Source: Terriglobia bacterium (GTDB lineage Bacteria > Acidobacteriota > Terriglobia > Terriglobales > Acidobacteriaceae). From it: a stretch of DNA of 64,000 nt. Positions 112 to 52,781 of the stretch are shown here, piece after piece (the first letter of the stretch is position 1; each line of letters begins with the position of its first letter). The stretch is from contig JAIQFZ010000028.1 of NCBI GenBank assembly GCA_020073015.1, positions 1 to 64,000 on the forward strand. Reading direction: 5' to 3'. Under the pieces are notes generated by a model. It was not told the DNA's origin. It ran no database searches and was given only the letters and a program-made list of their open reading frames with translations. A program made the position numbers and the translations under genes.

Positions 112-222
112 AGCCCCGAAGGGGCGGAATAAGTTAGCCCAGGGCGTAAGCCCTGGGTGAGCGCGAAAAATCAATTGAGTCCCGTAGGGACGACATAAAG
201 AGCGAGGGCGTAAGCCCGAAGC
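112..222. repeat. compound intergenic hairpin repeat
   Basis: The rpsJ-rplC gap holds successive perfect stem-loops: CCCC-GAA-GGGG (114-124), an 8-bp stem CCCAGGGC-GTAA-GCCCTGGG (138-157), GTCCC-GTA-GGGAC (179-191) and a GGGC-GTAA-GCCC stem (206-217). No poly-T follows, so these are unlikely to be terminators. Comparable multi-hairpin intergenic repeats are common in acidobacterial genomes (general knowledge, not searched). Confidence 0.7.
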
Positions 223-47016: not shown

Positions 47017-47739
47017 TCAATCCTGCAACACGATGAGTGGGCCGGGTTCCGGACGCTGATGGAGCCCGCACTCTGTCTTGGCGAAGCCCGCCCACCGTCC
47101 CGAGCGCGGGTCTTCTCCGCTCTCGACCGGTCGTGTGCAGGGTTCGCAACCGATGCTGGGATAGCCACGATCATGCAGCGGGTTGTAAGGAAGATCGTTG
47201 CTGCGCACGTAATCCCAGACCATGTCGTTGGTCCAGTCGCAGAGCGGATTGATCTTGATCAGTCCGAACTTCGCATCCCAATCCACCTTCTGAGCATGGG
47301 TTCGATCCGGCGTTTGATCGCGGCGGATGGCGGCAATCCAGGCGTCCAGCTTAGATAGCTTTGCCCGCAGTGGCTCGACCTTTCGCATGTAGCAGCAGCG
47401 GTCCGGGCTGTGCAGCCACAACGAGGGCCCGTGCTTTTGATTCTGCTCGTCTACGGTTAACGCGGGCTTCAGGCGTTCCACTTCAATGCCATACCGGCGC
47501 TCGATCTTGGCCATGAGTTCGTACGTCTCAGGGAAGAACAGACCCGTATCAAGCGTGAATACACGGACGTCCGTGCGCAAGCGCATCGCGATGTCGATGA
47601 GTACGATTCCTTCGGGGCCAAATGCGGACGCAACCGCGATCCGCTTTCCGAAGCGGTGCAGCGACCAGTCAAGCAGTTCTTCGGCAGTCCACGATTCGGC
47701 GAATCCCTGCATGGTTCGAAGCCAGGTGCGCTCACCCAT
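47017..47739 (-). CDS. cysH: adenylyl-sulfate (APS) reductase, Fe-S type
   Basis: Reduces activated sulfate to sulfite in assimilation. The 240-residue protein has Cys115-Cys116 (DRCCYMRKVEPL) and Cys198-x2-Cys201 (GCEPC), the four ligands of the [4Fe-4S] cluster that marks APS rather than PAPS reductases, plus catalytic Cys224 in TECGLH. Nucleotide-binding SAFGPEGIVLIDIA is near residue 38. Last gene of the sulfur operon, overlapping cobA by 8 nt. Confidence 0.92.
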   Translation of the reverse strand: MGERTWLRTMQGFAESWTAEELLDWSLHRFGKRIAVASAFGPEGIVLIDIAMRLRTDVRVFTLDTGLFFPETYELMAKIERRYGIEVERLKPALTVDEQNQKHGPSLWLHSPDRCCYMRKVEPLRAKLSKLDAWIAAIRRDQTPDRTHAQKVDWDAKFGLIKINPLCDWTNDMVWDYVRSNDLPYNPLHDRGYPSIGCEPCTRPVESGEDPRSGRWAGFAKTECGLHQRPEPGPLIVLQD

Positions 47740-48568
47740 GAATCACCGCCTGATTGGCAGCCAGCCGGTAATCGTCGGTTGCAGTAGGGACCGCGGGCTG
47801 CGCAGGCAGCGGCTGGCCGTAAAGCGTCTCGAGCCGGAGCCGGTCGTGCTGTGAGAGACGGACGACGTCTCCAATGATGAGGATGGACGGTTTGGCCTGC
47901 ATGGTGATCTGGGGAAGTTCGTTCAGCGTGGTCAAGATCATCTGTTGTGATGGGGTGCTGGCGCGTGACACGATCGCGACGGGCGTTTGCAAGGCGAGGC
48001 CAGCCGCCGCGAGTTTGCGTGCGGTGATGCGCGCGTCGGGGCCGGGCATGTACAGCGCGATGGTTGTGCCTGAGGCCAGAAGGGAGCGGAGATCGGGGAG
48101 AGGCCGGTCATTGTCATTGGCACTGGCGAAGTGGCCGGTCATAATGAGAAGCGACGAAGCGGTTGCGCGCCTGGTCAGCGAGATTTCCGCCGCTGCGGCC
48201 GCCGCCAGAACTGAGGTCACGCCGGGCACCACTTCGAATTCGATGCCCGCCTCGCGCAACGCCTGGATTTCTTCTCCCGAGCGGCCGAACACGAGCGGGT
48301 CGCCGCCCTTGAGGCGAACCACCTGCAGACCCTGCCGGGCGAGTTCGATCATGAGGAAGTGGATGGCCTCCTGGCGCGTGCTCTTCTGGCCGCAGCGCTT
48401 GCCCACGTCATAAATGCGAGCCTTCCTGGGTGCATGGCTCAGAATCTGAGGCGATACCAGGTCATCGTGCAGGACCGTGTCGGCCTGACGGAGGATGCGC
48501 AGCGCTTTCAGCGTGAGTAGCTCCGGATCACCGGGGCCCGCGCCAACGAGATAAACTTTGCCGTTCAC
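47732..48568 (-). CDS. cobA: uroporphyrinogen-III C-methyltransferase
   Basis: Methylates uroporphyrinogen III at C2 and C7 toward siroheme, the cofactor of sulfite reductase. GTG 48568 with AAAGGA upstream gives VNGKVYLVGAGPGDPELLTL; SAM-binding LKGGDPLVFGRSGEE and VVPGVTSVLAAAAAAEISLT follow. 278 residues. The GTG overlaps the preceding TGA (GTGA). The longer open frame further upstream is a shadow. Confidence 0.92.
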   Translation of the reverse strand: MNGKVYLVGAGPGDPELLTLKALRILRQADTVLHDDLVSPQILSHAPRKARIYDVGKRCGQKSTRQEAIHFLMIELARQGLQVVRLKGGDPLVFGRSGEEIQALREAGIEFEVVPGVTSVLAAAAAAEISLTRRATASSLLIMTGHFASANDNDRPLPDLRSLLASGTTIALYMPGPDARITARKLAAAGLALQTPVAIVSRASTPSQQMILTTLNELPQITMQAKPSILIIGDVVRLSQHDRLRLETLYGQPLPAQPAVPTATDDYRLAANQAVIHG

Positions 48569-49197
48569 AAAAGGTCCTTTCCTGTTTCGAGTAGCCGGTC
48601 GTGCTCGAATTCTGCAAACGCTTCCGGAGTGACGGATTGGTGAAGCAGACTGCGCCGCAGCTGAGGTTCGCAGCCGCTCTGGAACAACGCTGCCCGCTTC
48701 TTGCCCAGCTCTTCGAGCCAAACGCCGTAGACGGGCGGAAACTCTTCTTCGAACTGCTTGCGGACGCGCTGCGCCAGCGCGGGGCTGAGTCCGCCGGTTG
48801 AAATCGCGATCTGGAAGTGACCGCGACGCACCACCGCCGGATAGAAGAAATCGCAATGGGGCGGATCGTCGACGACGTTGCAAAGGATGCCTCGCTCCTG
48901 CGCTGCCCGGTAGATCCCGTGATTTACTGCCACCGACGAGGTGGCGGCGACTACAAGGAAGACGCCGTCGAGATCGGACGGCTCGAAGGTTCGTTGCGAC
49001 CAAGCCAGCGTGCCACGGCTCGCTGCGTCCGTGACGGCAGCTGAGGCCGAAAGAGCGACCACGTGAACCCGGGCTCCGCAGTCGACGAGACTGCGAATTT
49101 TTGGCTCGCCGATACTGCCCGCTCCGACAACCAGGCAGGGGCGTCCGTCGAGCTTGAGGAACATCGGGAATAGTGGTGCGGCGCTCATTTCGATCAA
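48565..49197 (-). CDS. precorrin-2 dehydrogenase / sirohydrochlorin ferrochelatase
   Basis: Corresponds to the N-terminal half of CysG (or yeast Met8): NAD-dependent oxidation of precorrin-2 and, in many members, iron insertion to form siroheme. MFLKLDGRPCLVVGAGSIGE and VVDDPPHCDFFYPAVVRRGH are the hallmark segments, with AISTGGLSPALAQRVRKQFE after them. 210 residues, overlapping the sulfite reductase stop by 4 nt (ATGA). Confidence 0.9.
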   Translation of the reverse strand: MIEMSAAPLFPMFLKLDGRPCLVVGAGSIGEPKIRSLVDCGARVHVVALSASAAVTDAASRGTLAWSQRTFEPSDLDGVFLVVAATSSVAVNHGIYRAAQERGILCNVVDDPPHCDFFYPAVVRRGHFQIAISTGGLSPALAQRVRKQFEEEFPPVYGVWLEELGKKRAALFQSGCEPQLRRSLLHQSVTPEAFAEFEHDRLLETGKDLL

Positions 49198-50747
49198 CCT
49201 TCCACCGCCTGCGGCACCGGAGCGGCCGGGCGATCGCGTTCCACGGGCTCGACCTGCTCCCCGGCCAGAAATTGCCGAAGCTCGGCGTCACTGTGCCGTC
49301 CGAAGAAGCGGCGGAGATTCTCGCCGGGCTCCCGGGTTGCGCGGTAGGTGCGCAAGAGGCGCTCGATGGCATCGGGCACCTGCTGCGCCGCGCAGCGGTA
49401 GCCAACCGGACGTGCAATCGTCGGAAACGAACCCACGGCTCCGCCTACGCAGAAGTAGTAAGCGTCCACGAATGAGCCGTTGACTTTGAGCTTCTTGCCT
49501 TCGAGGCCGATGTCGGCGATCCAGTGCTGGCCGCAACTGTTGGGGCAGCCAGTGACGTGCAGCTTGAAGTCCTGATCGAAGCCGGGCAGGCGGTCGTCGA
49601 GTTCTTCAGTGAGCCAGCGTGAATTTACGATCAGCAGGTTCTGCATGGCGGTGGTTCGCAGGTCACCGGAGGCATGGCGTTCGGAGAGTTCGGCTGCCGC
49701 ATGTAGCTGTTCCCAACTGACGCGTCCACGCACGACTGCGGCCCCCACGAAGCACAGGCCCTCCTGTTTTTGCGAATGAATTCCGAGGTGATCGCGATAA
49801 TTGTCCTGGGGCGGATGCTCGGGCTCGGCGGGATCGAGTTCAAAGCCCAGCAGGCGTTCAAGTTCGCGCTGGAAGGCTTCTGCGCTCCAGCCTTCGCGGA
49901 GGAAAAGAAACTTCAGGCGGGCGCGCTCACGATGTTCGCGCAGGGAGGTCGTCGCGCGGAAGAGTTCGGCCACTCCGCGAATCACGTCCACTACCTGAGG
50001 CCAGCGCACAAAGGCGTTGAGACGGACCGCCAGGTGAGGATCGGTCGAGAGTCCACCGCCGACCCGCAGCGAGAAGCCGGTTTCCAACTGTCCGCGAAAA
50101 CTGCGCGTGATCGCCGTCAAGCCGACGTCATTGATCTCCGGATACGAGCACCAGGCGCGGCAGCCGGTGAGTGAGACTTTGAACTTGCGCGGCAGGTTAT
50201 AGAACTCGGCGTTGCCCGCGAGCAGACGCGAAGCTTCCATCGCCAGCGGGGAAGGGTCGCAGATTTCGTCGGCATCGACGCCGGCCACCGGGCATCCGGT
50301 GATGTTGCGGACCACGTCGCCGCACGCGCCCAAGGTGGTAAGTCCTTGTTGTTCCAGCGTTTGGAGAACTTCGGGGAGCGATTCGGGCGTCACCCAGTGC
50401 AGTTGAATGTTTTGGCGCACGGTGATGTCGGCAACGCCGCGTCCGAAGCGCCTGGAGAGATCAGCGATGGCGCGGAGTTGAGCGGCGCGCAGGATGCCGT
50501 TCGGGATGCGGATCCGAACCATGAAGTAGGGAAGGGCTTTGCCTTCGCCGTTGTGTCCTCCCACCACCCCAGCGCCATCGCCCTGCGTGTACACACCCCA
50601 CCAGCGCAGATAGGTGCCGAGCCATTCGGGTGGAATTGCCGGGAAGCCGGTGCGTGCGAACCCGCGAATTTCCTCGAGTGCGTCCCAGGGATTCTTCTCT
50701 CGCTTCAACCGTTCGACGCGTTGTGCTTTCGATTCTTTCGTCGCCAT
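49194..50747 (-). CDS. siroheme nitrite/sulfite reductase lacking two cluster cysteines
   Basis: A 517-residue duplicated-fold siroheme protein; genomic context indicates sulfite reduction to sulfide. RRFGRGVADITVRQNIQLHW, NITGCPVAGVDADEI and KVSLTGCRAWCSYPEINDVG form the first half, and HVTGCPNSCGQHWIADIGLE (Cys401, Cys405) the end of the second. The C-x5-C motif that normally supplies the other two [4Fe-4S] ligands (CTGxxxC) is absent: NLLIVN (370-375) joins directly to SRWLTEELDDRLPGF, where roughly 50 residues are expected. The frame is unbroken. ATG 50747 follows GGGGA. Confidence 0.85.
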   Translation of the reverse strand: MATKESKAQRVERLKREKNPWDALEEIRGFARTGFPAIPPEWLGTYLRWWGVYTQGDGAGVVGGHNGEGKALPYFMVRIRIPNGILRAAQLRAIADLSRRFGRGVADITVRQNIQLHWVTPESLPEVLQTLEQQGLTTLGACGDVVRNITGCPVAGVDADEICDPSPLAMEASRLLAGNAEFYNLPRKFKVSLTGCRAWCSYPEINDVGLTAITRSFRGQLETGFSLRVGGGLSTDPHLAVRLNAFVRWPQVVDVIRGVAELFRATTSLREHRERARLKFLFLREGWSAEAFQRELERLLGFELDPAEPEHPPQDNYRDHLGIHSQKQEGLCFVGAAVVRGRVSWEQLHAAAELSERHASGDLRTTAMQNLLIVNSRWLTEELDDRLPGFDQDFKLHVTGCPNSCGQHWIADIGLEGKKLKVNGSFVDAYYFCVGGAVGSFPTIARPVGYRCAAQQVPDAIERLLRTYRATREPGENLRRFFGRHSDAELRQFLAGEQVEPVERDRPAAPVPQAVEG

Positions 50748-50757
50748 TCTGTTCCCC

Positions 50758-50795
50758 AAAAACAAAAACCCACCGCCATTTTCTGGCGATGGGTT
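50758..50795 (-). terminator. attenuator terminator upstream of sulfite reductase
   Basis: On the minus strand AACCCATCGCCA (50795-50784), loop GAAAA and TGGCGGTGGGTT (50778-50767) form a 12-bp stem with one wobble, followed by TTTGTTTTT. It ends about 10 nt before the sulfite reductase start codon, so an unregulated terminator would silence the operon. Confidence 0.88.
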
Positions 50796-50828
50796 TGATG
50801 TATGCCGAAACTCTAACTAAGAATTAGA

Positions 50829-50906
50829 TCAGCAACCCCCTGCGCCAGAACACACGTTGGCGCAACAACAACAGCACATCATGGAGTTGAGCTGATTTCC
50901 CGACAT
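50829..50906 (-). CDS. cysteine-rich leader peptide
   Basis: A 25-residue ORF on the minus strand starting at ATG 50906 (MSGNQLNS) or at the tandem ATGs 50882/50879, then five consecutive Cys codons (50876-50862), ANVCSGAGGC and TGA at 50829-50831. Seven of the last 15 residues are Cys. GGGA precedes the first ATG only very closely, so the exact start is uncertain. Its place before a sulfate-assimilation operon and a terminator marks it as a regulatory leader rather than a functional protein. Confidence 0.75.
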   Translation of the reverse strand: MSGNQLNSMMCCCCCANVCSGAGGC

Positions 50907-51187
50907 CGTCCCGTTACTCTACGCGGATTTTCACTGCGGTGTCCAATCAGTAAAACAATTTGGTCGCAGCAAAATTTTGGATGAACTGGATGCCAGGCGC
51001 GATGCAGTTTCTTTCCGACGGGAGATTTCCACAGACGAGCGGAGTCAAGTGTCTGCTGCAGCGAGGCAGCAGAGGTCGAACCAAGCCTGCAAACGCAATC
51101 CCTAGTGGTCATCCAGTTGGTTAACTACAAGGCCTCGCGTTTTGCCGCTTGAGCCTCTTACGGAAGTCTCAACCTGAAACTTTCCTG
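50907..51187. other. divergent region between sulfur operon and dcw cluster
   Basis: About 280 nt without a gene. It should contain the sulfur-operon promoter on the minus strand; TTGCTG/TTGTTT-like elements around 50960-50980 are too weak to call. Confidence 0.35.
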
Positions 51188-51423: not shown

Positions 51424-51864
51424 ATGTTTCGCGGAAACCATCCAACTCGCGTGGACGAAAAAGGGCGTCTCAAGGTTCCCGCCGAATTCAAGCGGGTGAT
51501 CGACGAGAAGTATGCCCAACGCTTCTATATCACGAGTCTGGATGGAAACGTTGCTCAAATTTACCCCTTCGAGGAATGGGAGCGGATCGAACAGAAGCTG
51601 GCATCGCTGTCGACCTTCAACCCGACCAAGAAGAAGTTTTTGAATCGCGTGAACTATTACGGGCAGGTCGTGGAGATGGACGGGCAGGGGCGCCTGCTGG
51701 TCCCGCAGATCCTGCGCGAGTCGGCGCAGATCCGCGGCGAAGTGGCAGTGCTCGGCAATCTGACCTACCTGGAAGTCCGGAACCTGGAAGCGTTCGGCAA
51801 GGAGATTAAAGAGCAAGCGTTCACGGATGAAGACATCAAGACGCTCGACGAATTGGGCATCTAG
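51424..51864 (+). CDS. mraZ: transcriptional regulator MraZ
   Basis: A 146-residue AbrB-like regulator made of two SpoVT-type repeats: MFRGNHPTRVDEKGRLKVPA at the N-terminus and VEMDGQGRLLVPQILRESAQ in the second half. It forms a ring that binds GTGG repeats like those upstream. First gene of the dcw cluster; rsmH starts at its stop. Confidence 0.94.
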   Translation: MFRGNHPTRVDEKGRLKVPAEFKRVIDEKYAQRFYITSLDGNVAQIYPFEEWERIEQKLASLSTFNPTKKKFLNRVNYYGQVVEMDGQGRLLVPQILRESAQIRGEVAVLGNLTYLEVRNLEAFGKEIKEQAFTDEDIKTLDELGI

Positions 51865-52781
51865 TGCGCACGGATTCAACAGACACCCCCGAGCGGGGTG
51901 GGCATGGAGTGGTTGGCCATGTTCCCGTTCTTTTAAAAGAAGCGATCGATTTTCTGGCCGTACAGCGTGGCGGAACTTATCTGGATGCCACGGTGGGCTT
52001 GGGCGGGCACAGTTGCGAAATCGCAAAACGCCTCGGCGCACCGGGACATTTGATTGGCTTCGATAAGGATCCGGCGGCGCTGGAACGGTCCCGCGCAAGG
52101 CTGAGTAGCGCCGGCGACTCGCCGGCCATCACGTTGATCCACGGATCATTTGCGGAAGTCGGTGAGCGAATTACTCCGGCTTCTCTCGACGGTCTGTTAG
52201 CGGATCTTGGAGTGAGCAGTTTGCAGCTCGAGGACGCGGCGCGGGGATTCAGTTTTCGGGCGGATGGACCGCTCGACATGCGGATGAATCCGATGTCGGG
52301 CGAGACCGCCGAACAAGTGGTAAACCACATCGACGAGCGCGAGCTGGCCGATGTGATTTACGAATTCGGTGAGGAAAGGAGGTCGCGGAGAATCGCCAGA
52401 GCCATTGTCCGGTCGCGGCCGATATTGACCACGAGGCAACTTGTGGACGTGATATCAGCCGCGGCCCGGCCAATGAAACATGAGCGGATTCATCCGGCGA
52501 CCAGAACCTTTCAGGCTCTCCGAATTTTCGTAAACCATGAACTGGACGATCTGAAAGCACTGCTGGAGGCGGCGCCTGGCGTGCTGAAGCCGGGCGGAAG
52601 GCTGGTGGTCATCAGCTTTCACTCGCTCGAGGACCGGATCGTCAAGGATGCGCTTCGCGAAGGCGCGAAACAGGGGCTGTACCGGCTGCTGACGAAAAAG
52701 CCGGTGAGGGCCACGGAAGAAGAAATGGATCGCAATCCGCGGTCGCGCAGCGCAAAGATGCGCGCGGCCGAGAAAGTGTAG
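51864..52781 (+). CDS. rsmH: 16S rRNA m4C1402 methyltransferase RsmH
   Basis: N4-methylates C1402 in the ribosomal P site. GTG 51864 overlaps the mraZ TAG. HVPVLLKEAIDFL, the SAM loop YLDATVGLGGHS, DGLLADLGVSSLQLEDAARG and VISFHSLEDRIVK are all present over 305 residues. Confidence 0.95.
   Translation: MRTDSTDTPERGGHGVVGHVPVLLKEAIDFLAVQRGGTYLDATVGLGGHSCEIAKRLGAPGHLIGFDKDPAALERSRARLSSAGDSPAITLIHGSFAEVGERITPASLDGLLADLGVSSLQLEDAARGFSFRADGPLDMRMNPMSGETAEQVVNHIDERELADVIYEFGEERRSRRIARAIVRSRPILTTRQLVDVISAAARPMKHERIHPATRTFQALRIFVNHELDDLKALLEAAPGVLKPGGRLVVISFHSLEDRIVKDALREGAKQGLYRLLTKKPVRATEEEMDRNPRSRSAKMRAAEKV

Follow-up and report, generated by a model that had tools for sequence, protein, structure and literature searches.

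A cysteine-codon leader before the sulfite reductase operon of Acidobacteriota, a predicted and probably leaderless transcription attenuator

Why should a short open reading frame with an uninterrupted run of cysteine codons stand before an operon for sulfate assimilation, and could it govern transcription of that operon according to cysteine supply? The locus lies in the window (the whole 64,000-nucleotide stretch of contig JAIQFZ010000028.1 that was analyzed), which comes from a 5.5 Mb draft genome of a Terriglobia bacterium. The sir operon occupies the minus strand in the order sir, siroheme synthase N-terminal domain, uroporphyrinogen-III methyltransferase and cysH (Table 1), so that the sulfite reductase, siroheme synthesis and cysH genes named in the original prediction are indeed those found downstream. 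Divergent from the operon, on the plus strand at 51424–52781, mraZ and rsmH form the start of a division and cell-wall cluster; mraZ likewise adjoins sir divergently at one related locus (L031).

Table 1. Features of the sir operon and its leader, given as window positions.
Feature	Position	Strand	Remarks
-35 element	50940..50945	(-)	TGGACA; TTGACA/TTGACC in most relatives
-10 element	50916..50921	(-)	TAGAGT; TAGAAT in many relatives; leader ATG 9 nt further on
Leader ORF	50829..50906	(-)	MSGNQLNSMMCCCCCANVCSGAGGC and stop, 25 codons; probably (near-)leaderless
Proposed sensing run	50862..50876	(-)	five consecutive Cys codons, TGC TGT TGT TGT TGC
Segment 1	50858..50864	(-)	TGCGCCA, able to pair with segment 2; this form in only part of the relatives
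Segment 2	50836..50850	(-)	TTCTGGCG-CA-GGGGG, antiterminator 5' arm
Inner stem	50803..50834	(-)	TGCTGA.../TCGGCA; stacks inside the antiterminator, compatible with the terminator; absent from the original prediction
Segment 3	50781..50796	(-)	AAACCCATCGCCAGAA, common to the antiterminator and the terminator 5' arm
Intrinsic terminator hairpin	50766..50796	(-)	segments 3:4, 13 pairs, then TTGTTTTTGG; from sequence and helix covariation
U tract	50758..50768	(-)	TTTTTGTTTTT
Sulfite reductase (NirA/Sir family, siroheme), first operon gene	49194..50747	(-)	ATG at 50747
Siroheme synthase N-terminal domain protein (precorrin-2 dehydrogenase)	48565..49197	(-)	
Uroporphyrinogen-III C-methyltransferase (CobA/CysG-C)	47732..48583	(-)	start codon provisional
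CysH, (phospho)adenylyl-sulfate reductase	47017..47739	(-)	

The leader holds two further Cys besides the run of five, exactly as originally described, and the elements around it were likewise all recovered at the positions first given. The terminator proposed before sir is present, but its stem ends about 18 nt from the sir ATG, and the 10 nt first given holds only when the U tract is counted in. The 7-bp pairing TGCGCCA/TGGCGCA within the leader (50864–50858 with 50847–50841) exists at this locus, but its partners vary among relatives and are not seen in some. The 8-bp alternative pairing TTCTGGCG/CGCCAGAA lies where it had been placed, at 50850–50843 and 50788–50781, and is lengthened by GGG/CCC. 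A search of positions 50600–51100 with the covariance models of Rfam 15 gave no match up to E 1; the only match in the whole window was an Acido-Lenti-1 RNA (RF01687, 65.6 bits, positions 112–157, minus strand), which is unrelated to the attenuator, and no riboswitch, T-box or known leader family was matched at the attenuator itself.

The minus-strand RNA from 50910 to 50740, the stretch singled out for folding in the original prediction, folds better than its shuffles (z = −3.3), and RNA 50857–50758 does so with z = −5.7. Masking the leader RNA switches the fold between two mutually exclusive structures. When the RNA upstream of 50851 is masked, representing a ribosome held on the Cys run, co-transcriptional folding yields the antiterminator from a 3' end at 50782 and holds it until 50770; when the mask extends to 50818, as it would with a ribosome that has reached its stop, the terminator appears once the 3' end is at 50774. 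For the full-length RNA at equilibrium with the leader arm free, the terminator is still favored (−35.9 versus −29.0 kcal/mol), and control must therefore be kinetic. The polymerase hides about 10–14 nt of transcript, so that once the polymerase has reached the last U-tract position (50758) the decision falls in the interval marked by 50782–50770 and 50774. With the ribosome edge taken as about 12 nt from the A-site codon, the stall position leaves the antiterminator arm free and the stop position covers it.

These elements would operate in the following way. Transcription would begin a few nucleotides before the leader ATG, with ribosomes loading at the 5' end of the mRNA. With ample cysteine, the ribosome would reach the stop codon and cover the 50850–50843 part of segment 2, whereupon the terminator would form and the polymerase would leave before sir. 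When charged Cys-tRNA is short, the ribosome would halt in the Cys run, its front edge a little upstream of 50850; the free segment 2 would pair with segment 3 and pre-empt the terminator, and sir, the siroheme genes and cysH would be transcribed. On this sequence evidence, the sir leader very probably acts as a ribosome-mediated transcription attenuator with charged Cys-tRNA as its signal; the transcription start, the translation of the leader, stalling at low cysteine and termination in vivo are steps that we infer.

To assess how widely the leader is conserved, short ORFs with closely spaced Cys were sought ahead of sir in 30 related genomes and 80 named contigs; a Cys leader was defined as having at least four Cys within eight residues. 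The relatives found by name are Acidobacteriota, including Candidatus Sulfotelmatobacter, Terracidiphilus, Edaphobacter, Granulicella and Silvibacterium. Such a leader stands upstream of sir in 19 of 24 same-family loci and in 32 of 53 named loci, counts that do not represent independent events, the loci being related by descent and two of them (L005 and L031) being one contig. The reverse strand gave 0 and 0, and dinucleotide shuffles gave means of 0.15 (24 loci) and 0.3 (53 loci). By the same definition no Cys leader was found at any of 13 Rokubacteria-type loci or 10 other-phylum loci having the same gene; some Acidobacteriota loci (for example L043, L049 and L052) also showed none by the criteria applied to them. 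The leader Cys codons are enriched for TGT, with a TGT:TGC ratio of 230:140 versus 39:127 in the long ORFs of the window. One contig filed as Opitutia (Verrucomicrobia, L057) carries an Acidobacteriota-like sir with a Cys leader, a case of misbinning or transfer.

As the original prediction had anticipated, the short Cys-rich ORFs upstream of sir in relatives are followed by terminators with alternative pairings. Both the Cys run and the alternative stems, whose lack among relatives had been named as a refutation, persist at the level of genus, family and order, each lineage with complementary sequences of its own. An automatic search recovered a terminator together with a pairing between leader and terminator arm in 68 loci, where the distance from the first Cys codon to the terminator is mostly 70–95 nt. 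The sequences sort into types by lineage; among these, Sulfotelmatobacter-like genomes have CTGGCGCGGGGA/ACCCACCGCCAG, L026 has TGCCGGCGTGAGC/GCTCACCGCTGGC and L062 has CTCGCGCGGGC/GCCCGCG. The duplexes that leaders form with their own arms are stronger than those obtained by swapping between genomes; none of 10,000 permutations reached the observed value overall, and 4 of 10,000 did so among loci without a CGCCAG-type arm. In the genus-level alignment A2 the terminator helix contains six pairs with double changes, a score reached by none of 500 shuffles, and the antiterminator core is 93% paired and nearly invariant, its covariation within the genus being not significant; antiterminator covariation is seen only between lineages. 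At three loci (L019, L041 and L090) the change at the arm edge is matched in the leader and in the two arms of the terminator. Positions 12-91 and 11-92 at the edge of the helix pair in some of the sequences but not in others, and only the CCA/TGC clade is cited as support. The hairpin between segments 1 and 2 is unevenly conserved: it was found in 22 of 31 sequences by a loose MFE criterion, is clear in L001–L005, uses another arm in L017, L019, L041 and L090, and is weak or absent elsewhere.

The start of the transcript was approached with a scan, blind to start codons, that picked out the best sigma70-type promoter ahead of the Cys run. A fair promoter was found in 70 of 75 loci, and in 62 of these 70 an ATG in the Cys frame lies 5–13 nt past the −10 box, with peaks at 6, 7 and 10 nt; at the same spacing the other two frames have 0 and 2 ATGs, and a few other loci have a GTG in that same place. 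With the promoter directly before the leader ATG in these 62 loci, transcripts should start before 50829, as the attenuator originally proposed would need; a start downstream of that position had been named as evidence against it. The leader mRNA looks to begin at its start codon, or within about three nucleotides of it, and is predicted to be leaderless.

The same RNA chassis recurs before other genes. A covariance model (R1) was built from A2 starting 12 nt before segment 2, so that the Cys run was excluded, and was applied to relatives, the class and the phylum. With Cys-rich leaders, it matched before NirA/CysI-like sulfite reductase genes (L318, L322, L324, L325, L329, L267), cysD (L308, L266), genes of the rhodanese/mercaptopyruvate sulfurtransferase type (L307, L313, L315, L319, L327), a CysG-type gene (L310), an SsuA gene (L312), TauE genes (L320, L328) and genes for outer-membrane proteins (OMPP1/FadL-like, porin and TonB-type barrel; L269, L304, L306, L317), the last of which are perhaps uptake routes for sulfur compounds. 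It also matched, with a Cys leader and terminator, before family 2A encapsulin genes (L309, L311, L332), where the predicted attenuator would link this nanocompartment to cysteine supply. Functions were assigned by visible similarity to scanned members or by reading of the sequence for L320, L313, L315, L319, L327, L322, L324, L325, L329, L311, L332, L266, L267 and L269.

Before genes of other pathways the codon run is exchanged. Aspartokinase genes have Thr-rich leaders (L265, containing STTSTTTTSTIL, L321 and L272) or Thr/Met-rich leaders (L270 and L271), and ilvC has a leader with Ile/Val codons (L268). In two single cases at phylum level, with genes judged by eye, the leader of a DAHP-synthase-like gene (L331) has aromatic (Trp/Tyr) codons and that of an O-acetylhomoserine-sulfhydrylase-like gene (L334) has Cys/Met codons. 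The chassis before asd (aspartate-semialdehyde dehydrogenase; L316 and L326) is the same, and the leader there has only two or three Cys codons. Two further phylum-level matches (L333 and L335) were set aside as weak; they look like ordinary terminators beside other features. Nothing argues more strongly that the ribosome would read these runs as a supply signal than their agreement with the pathway. It is reasonably likely, on this comparative evidence, that Acidobacteriota share a single leaderless chassis and vary only its codon run (Cys, Thr, Ile/Val, and probably also aromatic and Cys/Met). Stalling would then be a main regulator of their sulfur and amino-acid genes, and the Cys version would serve a sulfur regulon of several operons, the family 2A encapsulin among them. 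The probable leaderless start, the range of sulfur genes across the class and the exchangeable codons all go beyond the original prediction, whose attenuator reading is supported by conservation, the mutually exclusive folds and codon runs that match the downstream pathway.

The window's own genome, searched with TGYTGYTGYTGY, gave 75 matches, and of those checked only that of the window looked like an attenuator; within the genus, no Cys leader followed by a terminator was seen before cysE or ATP-sulfurylase genes. Two cysK loci (L175 and L202, genomes G013 and G015) stand apart from the rest of the genus in that they have a short ORF ending in CACCCCCCR and a stop about 70–80 nt upstream of the gene and no obvious terminator, possibly an instance of translational attenuation. 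Upstream of cysK, an AT-rich box resembling ATAGACAAGTAAAGTAGTAGAGTTAAT is conserved in L192, L195, L196, L197, L198, L199, L203 and L205 and is perhaps the site of a regulator of the Rrf2/CymR/IscR type.

The exchange of codon runs also bears on whether the signal is cysteine itself. Any stall at the run would expose segment 2, and redox has been suggested as a possible signal for mycobacterial ORFs (PMC4633059), so that the leader might respond to whatever blocks its translation, antibiotics and redox stress included, with the Cys codons as one input among several; we regard this broader input as unlikely, since the run fits the pathway in each setting, Cys with sulfur genes, Thr with aspartokinase and Ile/Val with ilvC. 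A control of translation in the mycobacterial style, in which stalling or termination on the polycysteine leader governs ribosome access to the sir start, seems less likely again. It would suit a leader that looks leaderless and poly-Cys, as in the mycobacterial cases described in the passages cited here (PMC13236596, PMC9031893), and the cysK loci of G013 and G015 with their poly-Cys ORF; against it, relatives keep a strong intrinsic terminator with its U tract in the stretch from leader to sir, the helix of this terminator covaries, and the Shine-Dalgarno-like GGGGA of sir (50757–50753) lies outside both hairpins.

The preferred reading, transcription attenuation on Cys-tRNA supply, also accounts for what is kept in the leader. 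The tail reads V-C/S-S-G-A-G/R... in most of the genus, and at L018 the CTGGCGCGGGGAGG DNA is kept but read in another frame, while at L020 the ORF stops ahead of that segment; the conserved 3' part is therefore kept as RNA and not as peptide, and SGAGRL as a functional peptide tail was rejected on the strength of these two loci. That the leader instead encodes a Cys-rich metal- or redox-binding peptide, or an arrest peptide, with the terminator merely ending its own transcript, is accordingly very improbable despite the VSSGAGRL segment kept in many leaders, given those two loci, the wide variation of the peptides outside the Cys run and the specific complementarity of leader and terminator arm.

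Acidobacteriota are among the most abundant soil phyla, and the predicted attenuator gives a direct account of how their sulfate assimilation would be controlled. Its short sequence signature can be used to find further regulon members, the different codon runs carried by a single RNA scaffold amount to a natural experiment on mechanism, and the leaderless start unites two regulatory themes known separately. In the literature searched, outside of which lies Lopatovskaya et al. 2010 (cited in PMC4833913), no such element in Acidobacteriota was found, in keeping with the original statement that none was known to have been described; nor were any worked-out Acidobacteriota attenuator or cysteine-specific attenuation with a full terminator and antiterminator. 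The predicted system is new in coupling cysteine sensing to a terminator, in its leaderless start, in its phylum, in the number of sulfur genes it would serve and in its use of one shared chassis.

Several known systems resemble it in part. Naville and Gautheret 2010 predicted premature terminators in 5' regions of Acidobacteria, almost none with an associated function (PMC2965389), whereas here the sensing part and the target pathway are given. Candidate Cys leader peptides before actinobacterial cys operons were proposed by comparative genomics (Seliverstov et al. 2005, PMC1262725); they share the Cys codon runs upstream of cys operons, but no conserved terminator hairpins were found there, whereas those described here are present and covary. 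Mycobacterial Cys uORFs were proposed as the first cysteine-directed attenuation by Shell et al. 2015 (PMC4633059), and the mycobacterial polycysteine leaderless short ORFs (Canestrari et al. 2020, Mol Microbiol 114:93) are reported, in the passages cited, to act on translation (PMC13236596, PMC9031893). As far as those passages describe them, they are alike in having a poly-Cys short ORF at the mRNA 5' end upstream of cysteine and sulfur genes and differ in acting on translation with no terminator hairpin, whereas the conserved terminator and antiterminator here indicate control of transcription; the operons and the phylum differ as well. The closest likeness is to the trp, his and thr attenuators of Proteobacteria, also known in Actinobacteria, with which the sir leader shares a leader ORF rich in codons for the product, an intrinsic terminator, a mutually exclusive antiterminator and a biosynthetic operon. 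The predicted attenuator belongs to this ribosome-mediated type in every defining feature that could be tested, apart from the variable 1:2 hairpin; it differs from those attenuators in that cysteine would be sensed, the leader ORF is predicted to be (near-)leaderless, the phylum is Acidobacteriota and one RNA chassis, with its variable 1:2 hairpin, carries different codon runs.
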